Below, piece after piece: positions 864 to 8,867 of a stretch of DNA of 59,755 nt. The notes beneath the pieces are model-generated. The model made no database searches. It worked only from the letters and a program-made list of their open reading frames with translations, and was not told the DNA's origin. Source of the DNA: Actinopolymorpha alba DSM 45243. Lineage in GTDB: Bacteria; Actinomycetota; Actinomycetes; Propionibacteriales; Actinopolymorphaceae. Numbering within the stretch: position 1 is the stretch's first letter; each line of letters starts with the position of its first letter. The stretch covers positions 103-59,857 of the forward strand of contig NZ_KB892775.1 in the NCBI RefSeq assembly GCF_000373925.1, in the 5' to 3' direction. The position numbers and the translations under genes were made by a program.

Positions 864-1257
864 GCGTGGCCGGGCGGGGAGGCGGATCTCCATGCCGGCG
901 GCGGTGGTCGGAGTGCTGCTGGGTGTGGGCATGTGTGTCGCGGCGATGGCGACGGGACGGGTCGGCCTGGGCCTGTCGATGCTCGGCATCGTGCTCGTGT
1001 TCACCGCGTTCATCGTGATCGCGTCCCGCTTCAGCGACACGGTCGCTCTCCTGGGGGACGACGTGCACGACGAACGCCACGCGCACATCCACCAACGGGC
1101 CGCGCTCTACACGCTCAACATCCTGGCGTTCGTCATCGTGGGCGGGGCGATCGTCGACCTCGCCCGGGGCCGGGACGGGGGTTCGTGGGCGTTCCTGGGG
1201 TTCGTCGGCGGGCTTGTCTACGTGGTCTCCCTGCTCGTGCTCAGCCGCCGCGGCTGA
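847..1257 (+). CDS. Small four-helix membrane protein, partner of the XRE regulator
   Basis: A 136-residue protein with four predicted membrane segments at about residues 14-36, 38-59, 85-105 and 112-131. A charged loop in the middle is rich in His and Asp (DDVHDERHAHIHQR). The ATG at 847 lies inside the XRE gene and has a GAGGAGG ribosome binding site at 834-840, so the two genes are translationally coupled. It resembles the DUF2178-type membrane proteins usually encoded beside YozG-like regulators. Its function is unknown; it may be a membrane sensor or antagonist of the regulator. Confidence 0.7.
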   Translation: MSTTTKRGRAGRRISMPAAVVGVLLGVGMCVAAMATGRVGLGLSMLGIVLVFTAFIVIASRFSDTVALLGDDVHDERHAHIHQRAALYTLNILAFVIVGGAIVDLARGRDGGSWAFLGFVGGLVYVVSLLVLSRRG

Positions 1258-1314
1258 GCGACAAACCCGCGCTCCTCTCTCGATCCATCCTTGTTCACAT
1301 TGGGGGTTTAGCTC

Positions 1315-2565
1315 ATGCTGCCTGAACACTGGTTGGCGCACAGGCTCGCGCTCGTAGTCCTTGGACCCACCCTGGTCGCGGCGAGTGCGACCTTCTGCGC
1401 ACCGCCCGCGGGCGCCTCGACTCGCGAGATGTACGCGCCGCAGAAGGTGGCCGCGTCCACCTCGAGCGGGCTGGAGGGCCTGGCCGACCTGGTGATCGAC
1501 GAAGGGGCGCCGGGCGTGGTGCTGGCCCGGCGTACGCCCGAGGACGGGACCACCGCGATCGCGCGGGGAGTCGCGGACCTGCGGACCCAGCGTCCCGCCC
1601 GGCCGGACGACAGGCACCGCATCGGCAGCATCACCAAGACCATGGTGGCGGTGCTGGTCCTGCAACTGGTGGCCGAAGGACGGCTTCAACTCGACGACCG
1701 GGTGGCGGAGCGGCTGCCCGACCTCGGGATCGACGAGCGGATCACCGTACGCCATGTGCTCCAGCAGACCAGCGGATTCCGCACGGACACGGGGGTCTTC
1801 GCGCCGCCGCGCTCCTACGAGAGCAACCGGTTCCGGTACTTCCGTCCGGCCGAGCTGATCGAGATCGCCCTGACCAACCAGGAGTCAAGGCCGGCGCCAG
1901 GAACGACGTGGCAGTACTCCAACACCAACTACGTCCTCGCCGGCATGCTGATCGAGAAGGTCACGGGCCATCCGGTACGCGCCGAACTCACCCGCCGGCT
2001 CTTCGGGCCACTGGGGATGCGGGACACGTCGTTCCCCGAGCGCAGCCCGTTCGTCAGCGGCCGGCACCTGCGCGGCTACCTGCCGGGCGAGCCCGGCCAA
2101 CCGATGGACGACGTGACGACCTATTCCATGAGCTGGGCCTGGACGGCGGGTGCGGTCATCTCGACGACGCGGGACCAGATGACCTTCCTGCGGGCGCTCT
2201 TCACGGGCCGGCTGCTACCCAAGCCGCTGCTCGACGTGATGATGGACGCCGAGGAGTTCGGGTACGGCCTGGGGCTCTTCCCCTTCCCGGTGTCGTGCGT
2301 GCCCGGTGGGGTCGCGTGGGGCCACGACGGCGTGGTCTTCGGCTACCAGACCGCGGTGTTCAGTACGCCGGACGGCGCTCGCCAGGCCAGCATCGGGGCC
2401 AACACCTGGCTCATCGACGAGTCCGGCAACCTCAACCCGCTCGTCGTGCGGGCCGCGGCCGCCGCGCTGTGCGACGAGCCGGCCGCCAGCCTTGCCGGCG
2501 TCGACGGACCCCCGGCACCCGCGGCCAGGTTGTCTCGCATCCTGGGCAGCGCGGACGATCTGTGA
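1315..2565 (+). CDS. Secreted serine hydrolase, class C beta-lactamase / D-Ala-D-Ala carboxypeptidase fold
   Basis: The product has 416 residues. An N-terminal hydrophobic stretch (residues 9-28) followed by Ala-rich residues looks like a signal peptide. The penicillin-binding fold signatures are present: SxxK as S105-I-T-K108, YxN as Y201-S-N203, and an HDG motif near residue 341 in place of KTG. Family members cleave peptidoglycan stem peptides, beta-lactams or other esters and amides, and this sequence does not tell which. It sits alone between the XRE/membrane pair and the SAM riboswitch. The start at 1315 is the only reasonable one that keeps the signal peptide. Confidence 0.8.
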   Translation: MLPEHWLAHRLALVVLGPTLVAASATFCAPPAGASTREMYAPQKVAASTSSGLEGLADLVIDEGAPGVVLARRTPEDGTTAIARGVADLRTQRPARPDDRHRIGSITKTMVAVLVLQLVAEGRLQLDDRVAERLPDLGIDERITVRHVLQQTSGFRTDTGVFAPPRSYESNRFRYFRPAELIEIALTNQESRPAPGTTWQYSNTNYVLAGMLIEKVTGHPVRAELTRRLFGPLGMRDTSFPERSPFVSGRHLRGYLPGEPGQPMDDVTTYSMSWAWTAGAVISTTRDQMTFLRALFTGRLLPKPLLDVMMDAEEFGYGLGLFPFPVSCVPGGVAWGHDGVVFGYQTAVFSTPDGARQASIGANTWLIDESGNLNPLVVRAAAAALCDEPAASLAGVDGPPAPAARLSRILGSADDL

Positions 2566-2606
2566 GACCGGTCAGTTAGGCTCGGCGGGACAACTGAAGA
2601 AGGAAT

Positions 2607-2763
2607 CTCATCCAGAGGGGCAGAGGGACCGGCCCGACGAAGCCCCGGCAACCGGCCGACCGCCGACGCGTGTGTCTCGCATGCATCAGAGGCCCCGCGG
2701 CGGACACGGTGCCAACTCCGGCCTACGACGTCTCGCCAGACAGGGAGCAAGCCCTGGGTGGAC
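2607..2763 (+). promoter_or_regulatory. SAM riboswitch (SAM-I / S-box type) in the leader of the thrC-like gene
   Basis: The leader contains the conserved S-box core in order: AGAGG...GAGGGACCGGCCC, GACGAAGCC, CGGCAACCGG, and a distal GGTGCCAACTCC (about 2708-2719). P1 can form between TCATCCAG at about 2608 and CTGGGTGG at about 2754. The aptamer ends about 30 nt before the ATG at 2795, next to the AGGAAGG ribosome binding site. There is no strong U-rich terminator, so control is probably at translation initiation. S-boxes normally switch off methionine or SAM supply genes when SAM is abundant. Confidence 0.85.
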
Positions 2764-2794
2764 GTGCGTGGGAAAGATGAGGAAGGAAGCCTCG

Positions 2795-4075
2795 ATGACG
2801 ACGTACGCCGGCGCTGACATCACGCGCGACGCCCACACCATTCGCCCTGGAGCTTTTGGCAACGCGACCACGCTGCGATGTCGCGAGTGCGGTGCCACCA
2901 CCCCGCTCGGCGCGCACTACGCGTGTTCAGACTGTTTCGGTCCGCTTGAGGTCGACTACGACCTCCCCTCGATCACCCGCGAGCAGATCACCTCCGGCCC
3001 TCCAAACATCTGGCGCTATCAGTCCCTGCTGCCGGTGCCGGCCGACATCGCGTCGTTCCCCAACACCGAACCCGGCCTCACCCGGCTCGTCCGTGCCGAC
3101 CGGCTCGCCGCCGCACTCGGGCTGCGGCGGCTCTGGGTCAAGGACGATTCCGGCAATCCCACCCATTCGTTCAAGGACCGCGTCGTGGCGGTGGCGCTCG
3201 CCGCTGCCCGCGAGCTGGGCTTCCAGGTGCTCGCGTGCCCCTCGACCGGCAACCTCGCCAACGCGGTAGCGGCCGCCGCGTCCCGCGCCGGGATCCGCAG
3301 CGTCGTGATGGTGCCGCACAACCTCGAGCAGCAGAAGATCCTCACCACCGCGGTGTACGGCGGCACGCTCGTCGCCGTCGAGGGCACCTACGACGACGTC
3401 AACCGGCTCGCCAGCGAGATCGCCGGTGAGGAGGAAGGCTGGGCGTTCGTCAACGTCAACGTCCGGCCCTATTACGCCGAGGGTTCCAAGACGCTTGGGT
3501 TCGAGATCGCCGAGCAGCTCGGCTGGCGGCTGCCGCAGCAGGTCGTGGTCCCGATCGCCTCGGGCGCGCAGTTGGTCAAGATCGACAAGGGGCTGCGGGA
3601 GTTCGTCGAGCTTGGCCTGGTCGAGGACGCTCCGTACAAGATCTTCGGTGCACAGGCGACCGGGTGCTCCCCGGTGTCCGCGGCATTCAAGGCCGGCCAT
3701 GACGTGGTGCAGCCGGTCAAGCCGGACACGATCGCGAAGTCGCTGGCGATCGGTAACCCCGCTGACGGGCCGTACGTGCTCGACGTCTGCCGGCGCACCG
3801 GTGGCGTGGTCGAGGACGTCAGCGACGACGAGGTGCTCGCCGGTATCGAGCTGTTGGCCCGCACCGAAGGGATCTTCGGTGAGACGGCGGGCGGTGTCAC
3901 GGTCGCGACCCTGAAGAAGCTGGTCGAGACCGGTCAGCTCGACCCCGACGCCGAAACCGTGATCATCAACTCCGGTGACGGCCTGAAGACCCTCGACGCC
4001 ATCGCTGGCAAGGTGGGGCCGAAGGCGACCATCCGTCCGACGTACGACGCGTTCACCGAGGCCGGGCTCGCCTGA
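2795..4075 (+). CDS. thrC: Threonine synthase-like PLP enzyme under SAM-riboswitch control
   Basis: 426 residues, fold-type II PLP enzyme. An N-terminal zinc ribbon (C29-x2-C32 and C44-x2-C47) is followed by the PLP-lysine motif HSFKD (Lys127) and the phosphate-binding STGN loop at 150-153. Classical threonine synthase converts O-phosphohomoserine to threonine. The context is unusual for that job: an S-box riboswitch lies in the leader and a CysO/MoaD-like sulfur carrier follows 43 bp downstream. No hom or thrB is nearby. I infer that it may instead, or also, make homocysteine from O-phosphohomoserine with sulfur from the carrier, by analogy with CysM using CysO thiocarboxylate. The start at 2795 has AGGAAGG at proper spacing; the open frame upstream is riboswitch. 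Confidence 0.8.
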   Translation: MTTYAGADITRDAHTIRPGAFGNATTLRCRECGATTPLGAHYACSDCFGPLEVDYDLPSITREQITSGPPNIWRYQSLLPVPADIASFPNTEPGLTRLVRADRLAAALGLRRLWVKDDSGNPTHSFKDRVVAVALAAARELGFQVLACPSTGNLANAVAAAASRAGIRSVVMVPHNLEQQKILTTAVYGGTLVAVEGTYDDVNRLASEIAGEEEGWAFVNVNVRPYYAEGSKTLGFEIAEQLGWRLPQQVVVPIASGAQLVKIDKGLREFVELGLVEDAPYKIFGAQATGCSPVSAAFKAGHDVVQPVKPDTIAKSLAIGNPADGPYVLDVCRRTGGVVEDVSDDEVLAGIELLARTEGIFGETAGGVTVATLKKLVETGQLDPDAETVIINSGDGLKTLDAIAGKVGPKATIRPTYDAFTEAGLA

Positions 4076-4118
4076 GCGCGCGGCTGCCCGCATTCACCGA
4101 AACACGGAGGCAGTAACC

Positions 4119-4394
4119 ATGGGTGTCAAGGTGCGGATCCCGACGATCCTGCGTACCTATACGGGCGGAGCTTCGGAGGTGGCCGCGGATGGTGGCACCC
4201 TGGCCGAGGTGCTTGACTCGCTCGAGGCGAACTTCCCCGGAATTCGCGCGCGGGTCCTCGACGACGCCGGCAAGCTTCGCAGGTTCGTCAACGTCTATGT
4301 TGGCGAGGAGGACGTGCGGTTCGCGTCCGGCCTGGAGACGCCAACGCCTGACGGCACGCAGGTGTCGGTGATTCCCGCGGTGGCCGGAGGCTGA
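4119..4394 (+). CDS. CysO/MoaD/ThiS-family sulfur carrier protein
   Basis: A 91-residue ubiquitin-like protein ending in the di-glycine tail AVAGG that is adenylated and converted to a thiocarboxylate in this family. Its sequence (IPTILRTYTGG near the start, RFVNVYVGEEDVRF in the middle, VIPAVAGG at the end) is close to what I recall of mycobacterial CysO, more so than to MoaD or ThiS. In Mycobacterium CysO is encoded with cysM and the JAMM protease mec; neither is present here. It is co-directional with the thrC-like gene, 43 bp away, with its own CGGAGG ribosome binding site. It probably donates sulfur to the thrC-like enzyme or to an unlinked synthase. Confidence 0.85.
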   Translation: MGVKVRIPTILRTYTGGASEVAADGGTLAEVLDSLEANFPGIRARVLDDAGKLRRFVNVYVGEEDVRFASGLETPTPDGTQVSVIPAVAGG

Positions 4395-4495: not shown

Positions 4496-5989
4496 GTGGA
4501 GATCGGTTTTCGCGAGCTCCCCGAAGGTCTCGGGGTCGAGGTCGCCTGCCCGCGGCGCGGACTCTCGCGGGTCGTGCTCAGGTGGGCCGCGCCGGTGCCG
4601 GCGTCCGCGCTCGTGCTGGGCGACGCGTGGGAGCGTTCGTACGGCGACCTCCAGTGGCGGCATCTCCAGCCCGAACGCCTGCTGCCGTGGTCGTGGCTCG
4701 CGCACGACCCGGCGACCAACACGACGAGCGGGATGGGTGTGCGGGTACGCCCGAACGCCTTCTGCTCCTGGACCCTCGACTCCGCCGGTATTTCCTTGTG
4801 GCTTGATGTCCGCAACGGTGGATCGCCTGTCCTGCTTGGCGATCGGGTGCTCGACGCGGCGACCCTGGTGGCCGTCGAGGGCGAGTCGGCGTACGACGTC
4901 CAGACCGCGTTGACGGCCTCGATGTGCTCAGATCCCTTGCCCGCAAGGGGTCCTGTCGTTGGTTGTAACAACTGGTACTACGCCTACGGGTTCAACTTCG
5001 GGCCCGCGCAGATCATCCGCGACGCCGAGACGATCGTGGAGTACGCCGACGGTCATCCGGTGAAGCCCTACTGCGTGGTGGATGCTGGCTGGAGTCCCGG
5101 TGGCGCCTGTCCTGGTGGCCCCTGGACCGCCGGTCTTCCCGGAACCTTCGACGACATGCCGGGGTTCGCCGCCGACATCGCCGCCCGCGGGGCGCGGCCC
5201 GGGATCTGGATGCGGCCGGCCGCTCTGTCGTACGTCGACGATCCGGCGCGGTTGCGACCCGGTCCGCGTCCCGTGCGTGAACAACCGCTCGACCTCACCC
5301 TGCAAGACAACCTTGACGGGATCCGCGCCGATGTGGCCCGCCTGGTCGGCTGGGGGTTCGAGCTCATCAAGCATGACTTCTCGACGTTCGACGCGTTCGG
5401 TCGGTTCGCGCCCGCGATGGGGGCCGCGATGACCGACGCGGGGTGGCACTTCGCCGACCGCGGCCAGACCAACGCCGAGATCCTGCTGCGGCTCTACGAG
5501 GTGATCCGCGCGGGCGCCGGCGACGCGGTGGTGATCGGCTGCAACACGGTGGGCCACCTGGCCGCCGGGCTGGTCGAGGTCCAACGCATCGGCGACGACA
5601 CGTCCGGGCGCCGGTGGGAACGCACCCGCCGGATGGGGGTCAACACCCTCGCCTTCCGGCTCGCGCAGCACCAGTCGTTCTTCGTGGCGGACGCGGACTG
5701 CGTGCCGTGTACGCCGCAGACGCCGTGGGACAAGAACCGCCAGTTCCTCGATCTGGTGGCCCGGTCGGGCACCGCGCTCTTCGTCTCGGTCGACCCGAAC
5801 GCCCGCACGCCGCAGACCGACGCCGACCTGCGGGTCGCGGTCAAGCTGGCGCTCGACGGCGGCGACCCCGGCGGCGTCGAGCCGCTCGACTGGCTGCACA
5901 CGACCACGCCGGAGCGGTGGCGGACCAGCGAGGGAACCCGCACCTACCAATGGAGCGAGCCGTTCGGTGCCCCGGTCCTCCCGATCTAG
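4496..5989 (+). CDS. GH36/GH-D clan glycoside hydrolase (alpha-galactosidase-like)
   Basis: About 497 residues from the GTG at 4496. A beta-rich N-terminal domain is followed by a TIM barrel beginning near GCNNWYYAYG. The two catalytic aspartates of clan GH-D are visible: the nucleophile in ELIKHDF, and the acid/base in RIGDDTSG. There is no signal peptide, so the enzyme is cytoplasmic. The likely substrate is an alpha-galactoside, but subfamily specificity cannot be read from the sequence. The start is uncertain: the frame stays open with coding-like codons back to 4397 (CTG, 7 nt after a GGAGG), and GTG 4496 lacks a good ribosome binding site. Confidence 0.75.
   Translation: MEIGFRELPEGLGVEVACPRRGLSRVVLRWAAPVPASALVLGDAWERSYGDLQWRHLQPERLLPWSWLAHDPATNTTSGMGVRVRPNAFCSWTLDSAGISLWLDVRNGGSPVLLGDRVLDAATLVAVEGESAYDVQTALTASMCSDPLPARGPVVGCNNWYYAYGFNFGPAQIIRDAETIVEYADGHPVKPYCVVDAGWSPGGACPGGPWTAGLPGTFDDMPGFAADIAARGARPGIWMRPAALSYVDDPARLRPGPRPVREQPLDLTLQDNLDGIRADVARLVGWGFELIKHDFSTFDAFGRFAPAMGAAMTDAGWHFADRGQTNAEILLRLYEVIRAGAGDAVVIGCNTVGHLAAGLVEVQRIGDDTSGRRWERTRRMGVNTLAFRLAQHQSFFVADADCVPCTPQTPWDKNRQFLDLVARSGTALFVSVDPNARTPQTDADLRVAVKLALDGGDPGGVEPLDWLHTTTPERWRTSEGTRTYQWSEPFGAPVLPI

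Positions 5990-7241: not shown

Positions 7242-8867
<1,626 letters not shown>

Follow-up and report, generated by a model that had tools for sequence, protein, structure and literature searches.

The mycobacterial cysteine synthase CysM, like the CysM of the genome studied here, is a PLP enzyme that is fed by a carrier protein (CysO) ending in GG, and it uses a phosphorylated substrate. For methionine, a protein thiocarboxylate was reportedly identified as the sulfur source by Krishnamoorthy and Begley (2011) in the HcyS/MetY system of Wolinella, which is said to differ from the system considered below in employing a MetY-type enzyme and acetylhomoserine. In work by Hasebe, Adachi, Maruyama and Hamano (2024), metO is said to lie downstream of metM, and its product to supply the sulfur as a thiocarboxylate. 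MetM has been reported as a newly described homocysteine synthase from Streptomyces, with O-phosphohomoserine (OPHS) as its substrate; in the available part of that report, metO of S. albulus is described as related to a sulfur carrier gene, and S. albulus metM is preceded by a SAM riboswitch (PMC12172450). A separate report names Acidimicrobium ferrooxidans as an organism without any of the known routes to homocysteine (PMC5764234). Our searches found no further literature on MetM.

The locus described here lies in a 59,755-base stretch of the Actinopolymorpha alba genome, the whole of which is called the window. We are highly confident that it represents a metM-metO operon controlled by a SAM-I riboswitch, making homocysteine from O-phosphohomoserine with sulfur from the MetO thiocarboxylate (Table 1). 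The enzyme class, the carrier class and the upstream SAM riboswitch are all shared with S. albulus MetM/MetO, and we found no substantial difference from that system. The operon is therefore an orthologue of the published system and its route is already known; by this orthology, the window metM very probably encodes an O-phosphohomoserine-dependent homocysteine synthase. The preliminary description of this DNA had suggested the same reaction, O-phosphohomoserine plus a carrier thiocarboxylate giving homocysteine, which is published for the Streptomyces pair and predicted here. Our analysis gives genome-level support, from outside Streptomyces, for a recently found homocysteine route; what remains of interest is modest, and concerns annotation repair, carrier sharing and the loss of a zinc ribbon.

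Table 1. Features of the metM-metO locus (positions in the window)
Feature	Position	Strand	Basis and remarks
SAM-I riboswitch aptamer (S box)	2605..2783	+	full-length RF00162 match, 69.3 bits; P3 and P4 with long extensions
Shine-Dalgarno stretch AGGAAGGAAG	2780..2789	+	sequence; 4 nt overlap with P1, 5 nt 5' of ATG
metM, threonine-synthase-like PLP enzyme	2795..4075	+	ATG 2795, stop 4073-4075, 426 aa
metO, ThiS/MoaD-type sulfur carrier	4119..4394	+	PF02597 ThiS 55.8 bits; 91 aa
Perfect 14-bp inverted repeat, 5-nt loop	4447..4479	.	repeat and terminator scoring

In the proposed route, MetM would begin like threonine synthase, by PLP-dependent removal of the phosphate of O-phosphohomoserine. 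Where threonine synthase adds water, MetM would then draw sulfur from the thiocarboxylate at the C terminus of MetO, yielding homocysteine that MetH would methylate to methionine. MetO would be loaded by the MoeZ-type adenylyltransferase/rhodanese of the genome.

Relatives were drawn from two sources, a phylum sample of 198 genomes (own included; metM threshold E 1e-60), from which 29 metM loci were compared besides the window's own, and a second locus set made of the best 80 of 587 relatives with names. Among these best 80 of 587, the nearest by identity is Kribbella (80%) and the nearest by tree path, in a 55-row tree, is a Streptosporangiaceae MAG (L095); three Streptomyces loci in the set share 66-69% identity with the window enzyme, a comparison that does not extend to S. 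albulus MetM.

The S-box-type leader that had been claimed from the letters alone is borne out by the Rfam SAM model. RF00162 aligns over its full length (model positions 1-108) and scores 69.3 bits, where the gathering score is 44.4; the E-value over the whole 59,755-base window is 3.8e-14, and no other Rfam family matched there at gathering score. The coordinates first given for the cassette (2607-4394) were correct to within 2 nt. In this alignment, 42 and 37 positions are not displayed in the P3 and P4 loops, respectively. Since the simple folding energy of the leader was no better than that of shuffled sequences (z -0.25), the riboswitch call rests on the covariance model and not on stability. 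In 14 aligned sequences (window included) the riboswitch core columns are invariant, as is the AGAUGAG of P1, which is followed by a purine-rich stretch.

Several observations point to control at the level of translation. The 3' strand of P1 (2776-2783) extends into the ribosome-binding site, and the overlap of the Shine-Dalgarno stretch with P1 probably forms a translational expression platform. In all 28 actinomycete loci inspected (7 from the phylum sample, 20 of the best 80 of 587, and the window), the start codon, assumed in each case, falls 9-18 nt past the last base of the aptamer; the script motif missed five of these start codons, which were identified by eye instead. When SAM is plentiful, the aptamer P1 would form over the Shine-Dalgarno region and translation would be turned off. 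Such occlusion of the ribosome-binding site by P1 appears to be the simplest reading of the arrangement. A CCUC-GAGG pairing beside the start codon, conserved by eye in many loci, was also considered as the control element; as it gives no clear off state, only P1 over the Shine-Dalgarno stretch is proposed. In several deeper relatives (for example L053, L055 and L056) a hairpin followed by a T-run is seen by eye instead. Tandem riboswitches are treated in a separate study, the available part of which has no bearing on metM (PMC12452182).

The riboswitch accompanies metM widely. RF00162 was found 5' of metM in 25 of the 29 phylum-sample loci (17/20 and 8/9), with L039 only narrowly above the gathering score (44.6 bits), and in all 20 loci chosen from the best 80 of 587. 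A core-sequence pattern placed an S-box in 70 of the 80 loci of the latter set; two of the ten that the pattern missed (L062 and L081) are positive by Rfam, and the other eight lay outside the 20-locus Rfam scan. In one family (code f15; L044, L045, L047 and L051) metM-metO is kept and there is no RF00162 match at gathering score.

The enzyme, whose start at ATG 2795 was picked by its Shine-Dalgarno stretch, had been described beforehand as a threonine-synthase-like PLP enzyme with a zinc ribbon, and the models agree. Its sole Pfam domain is PALP (240.5 bits), and the NCBIfam threonine synthase model TIGR00260 scores 270.1 bits against a cut-off of 167.1. Four cysteines (C29, C32, C44 and C47), invariant in 11 aligned sequences (window included), fit a zinc ribbon and would be expected to bind metal. 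Threonine synthase belongs to the same PLP family and shares the phosphohomoserine substrate, and the nearest solved structures by sequence are likewise threonine synthases. These likenesses raise the possibility that the window gene encodes an ordinary threonine synthase, with the carrier an incidental neighbour and the S-box merely co-regulating the aspartate family. TIGR00260, however, cannot separate MetM from ThrC. A cyanobacterial homologue, Microcystis ThrC, is reported to be 51.6% identical to S. albulus MetM and to adjoin a metO-like gene, with no SAM riboswitch; it made threonine and deaminated it, and showed no clear MetM action, as far as the available part of the report goes (PMC12172450). 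That report counts against the homocysteine-synthase reading and in favour of a threonine synthase.

The content of the genome argues for homocysteine synthesis. The assembly comprises 8.0 Mb in 127 contigs and is 95.9% complete and 3.7% contaminated, so that an absent gene may be missed and claims of absence carry a small risk. Homologues of MetM occur at seven places, itself included. A second thrC, for which the preliminary description had suggested looking, was found on contig C39: a canonical ThrC (TIGR00260, 303.1 bits) encoded between a homoserine dehydrogenase (551.7 bits with NF004976, whose cut-off is 205) and a homoserine kinase that passes TIGR00191, in a hom-thrC-thrB operon. A further homologue on C117 passes the threonine synthase model NF006050 at 631.5 bits, and another, on C48, matches threonine synthase models but stays under the cut-off of each. 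The window enzyme, 34% identical to the ThrC query, is therefore neither the sole nor the operonic threonine synthase of this genome. Two elements of the conditions that were said beforehand to refute the homocysteine proposal, the lack of any other ThrC and the lack of an S-box match, were not what we observed, as the C39 ThrC exists and the RF00162 match is strong.

The same picture holds across the phylum, where a ThrC match (E 1e-50) accompanies metM in 72 of 75 metM genomes and was found in none of the remaining three (G058, G097 and G149). The listed ThrC matches are at least 49% identical to the query, as compared to 34% for the window MetM, and are therefore not MetM; the match of G017 (3e-66) is outside the listed matches and its place is not given. 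Moreover, metO adjoins metM in 27 of the 29 phylum-sample loci (all except L039 and L042), and control is by SAM, not by threonine. Against these observations, we consider a plain threonine synthase to be very improbable.

Sequence motifs also set MetM apart from ThrC. The three motifs N-x-R-P-[YF]-x-[AS]-E-G-S-K, ASG and AKSLAIG-x-PADG are present in 105, 110 and 98 of the 110 loci scanned, respectively; none occurs in the genome's own ThrC or in two ThrC-like paralogues, and solved ThrC enzymes differ from MetM at the same sites. A quick 55-row tree (35 rows from the best 80 of 587) places 38 rows, the window and Streptomyces among them, in a MetM group apart from ThrC (SH-aLRT 100), the three ThrC-like outgroup rows standing on very long branches. 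The 12 loci in which the AKSLAIG motif was missed had raised the suspicion of an altered active site in metM genes that lack an adjacent metO; all 12 carry Lys to Arg (three with a further residue changed) and one of them, L095, retains metO, and the suspicion was dropped.

Methionine supply in this genome points in the same direction. The best match to MetX spans 53 positions at 24.8 bits, none being full-length, and MetA has no match. Of 11 matches to the Cys/Met-metabolism PLP family (Cys_Met_Meta_PP) only two are near full length, and these score best as a cystathionine gamma-synthase and (below cut-off) a gamma-lyase, not as an O-acetylhomoserine (OAH) sulfhydrylase. Transsulfuration by these two enzymes was considered as a source of homocysteine and set aside, since without MetX or MetA they would have no acyl-homoserine; they may use phosphohomoserine, however, and the cystathionine gamma-synthase (PRK07811) could in principle do so like the plant enzyme, a possibility that counts against the proposed route. 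The genome also has a MetH-type B12 domain, with matches at two places.

The genome has a second SAM-I riboswitch, on contig C101 (L002 1501-1587, minus strand, 51.6 bits). It lies directly 5' of a GNAT acetyltransferase ORF (about 930-1490, minus strand), an unusual target, and a MetQ-like binding protein ORF, recognized by eye, lies upstream on the same strand.

The downstream gene encodes the CysO/MoaD-like carrier with a GG tail that had been noted previously: it matches PF02597 at 55.8 bits and ends in VAGG, so that the GG is already mature. With the SAMP1 model NF041918 it reaches 58.0 bits, just under the cut-off of 60. Leader, enzyme and carrier run in one direction, as stated earlier, all on the plus strand, with 43 nt between metM and metO. 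The inverted repeat beyond metO is possibly the transcription terminator of the operon, although it is terminator-like on the minus strand only and has no T-run on the plus strand. Further downstream, a 497-aa ORF (4496-5986) looks glycosidase-like by eye and matched neither Pfam nor NCBIfam at E 0.001, and groEL lies near the operon at 7242-8867. A groEL-like ORF was also seen by eye directly 3' of metM in L062 and L100, hinting at an old shared gene order. L100 is a contig binned as Spirochaetaceae with an actinobacterial-type metM, and is probably mis-binned.

ThiS-family carriers are encoded at five places in the genome, one of them the CysO directly 5' of CysM on contig C3. As MetO is 55% identical to this CysO, one might read the locus as a cysteine synthase pair of the CysM/CysO type. 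We regard this as having next to no chance of being right, given that the true cysO-cysM pair is on C3, that MetM fits threonine synthase models best, and that no cysteine synthase model appears among the 25 of 39 families listed for it. A carefully built tree of 50 carriers groups the 17 that are linked to CysM in a separate clade (97/89), which does not include MetO; the 27 MetM-linked carriers occupy one side of a branch that is unsupported (52/0) in the best tree. The CysM/CysO system thus differs from MetM/MetO in its PLP subfamily and substrate, in the separate clade of its carrier, and in its product, which is cysteine and not homocysteine.

A candidate for loading MetO is the single full-length ThiF protein of the genome, encoded on contig C117, which carries a rhodanese domain and scores above the NCBIfam cut-off as MoeZ; there is also another ThiF-type match, of 53.6 bits. 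The mycobacterial MoeZR loads CysO, according to the part of the report available (PMC3227635). By analogy, the MoeZ-type adenylyltransferase/rhodanese probably loads MetO.

Within the phylum sample, metM matches were found in 77 of 198 genomes; two of these (G034 and G179, 34-35% identity) were set aside, leaving 75, which makes metM widespread in the phylum. Both metM and metX were detected in 16 genomes, metM only in 59, metX only in 55 and neither in 68 (odds ratio 0.34, Fisher p = 0.0012, kinship ignored). Here metX was scored by E 1e-40, as the NCBIfam cut-off of 500 bits was reached by no genome, controls included. As 16 of the 75 metM genomes also have metX, the metM route is not always the sole route. 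Because TIGR00260 names the window enzyme a threonine synthase, automatic annotation may give false methionine gaps and duplicate threonine synthases. One metM match of the set, L056 in G067, carries a single in-frame TGA, reflecting either a sequencing error or a broken gene.

The adjacent carrier gene is not universal. Among the best 80 of 587 relatives, 18 loci had no metO detectable by tblastn in the DNA downstream of metM (short in two of them, L073 and L101), and none of these 18 showed a carrier-like P-A-x-[AS]-G-G end in any frame. All ten Pseudonocardiaceae of the set (L103, L115, L116, L120, L121, L127, L129, L130, L132 and L136) are among them, and together with one unclassified MAG (L124) they form a single MetM clade in the 55-row tree (SH-aLRT 100); some Nocardioides likewise have metM without adjacent metO. 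RF00162 lies upstream in all four Pseudonocardiaceae loci given to Rfam (L103, L115, L121 and L130). On the 55-row tree, metO adjacency changed at least 6 times, with three changes forced by starred branches.

Carriers were searched in 12 genomes with such solo metM genes, in four with metO and in the window's own genome. Each of the five genomes with metO has two close carriers: one lies beside metM and is 69-75% identical to the query (100% in the window's own genome), and the other, at 54-60%, lies beside cysM. By comparison, all 12 solo-metM genomes have a single close carrier, 54-63% identical and beside cysM; a distant second carrier (34-43% identity) is present in six of them.

These results raise the question of what feeds MetM when metO is missing. 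MetM may make homocysteine with either CysO or free sulfide as donor, leaving MetO a specialised and dispensable partner. The 11-member clade within the 18 metO-less loci, the lone cysM-linked close carrier in every solo-metM genome searched and the repeated changes in adjacency fit this reading, as does the RPYY[AS]EGSKT stretch, which is retained in all 16 solo MetM inspected of the 18. On the other hand, most relatives retain metO, which points to its use, half of the solo-metM genomes searched have the distant second carrier, and seven of the 18 metO-less enzymes have lost the ribbon cysteines, so that their chemistry may differ. On balance we judge a dispensable MetO to be rather unlikely. 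A related suggestion, which we offer tentatively and as somewhat short of an even chance, is that in metO-less lineages CysO feeds both CysM and MetM, one thiocarboxylate pool serving both sulfur amino acids, and that MetO elsewhere frees methionine synthesis from competition; ribbon loss would, in that case, reflect altered docking of the carrier or a switch to a different sulfur donor. Sulfide or the distant carrier is a possible donor in solo-metM genomes. In the literature searched, with the original MetM/MetO report beyond reach, we found no mention of metM without adjacent metO or of carrier sharing.

The metO-less clade, with its ribbon cysteines lost in part, poses a clear biochemical question on the sulfur donor. 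In seven MetM proteins, from Amycolatopsis (L121, L127, L129 and L136), Thermocrispum (L130), Prauserella (L132) and the MAG L124, all four ribbon cysteines are replaced (by Ser, Glu, Ser and Asp) in a segment that can be aligned by eye at the start of metM, about positions 1801-1900 of those loci. None of the seven has metO beside metM, and they make up one starred clade within the metO-less group of the 55-row tree. As a single clade they represent one event, which cannot alone link the ribbon to the carrier. Of the 110 loci scanned, 15 did not show the ribbon pattern. Among the 13 of these that were inspected (all but L059 and L060), six read CRAC with the cysteines kept and seven are the true losses. 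With these two aside, the loss was seen only in the Amycolatopsis-type clade.
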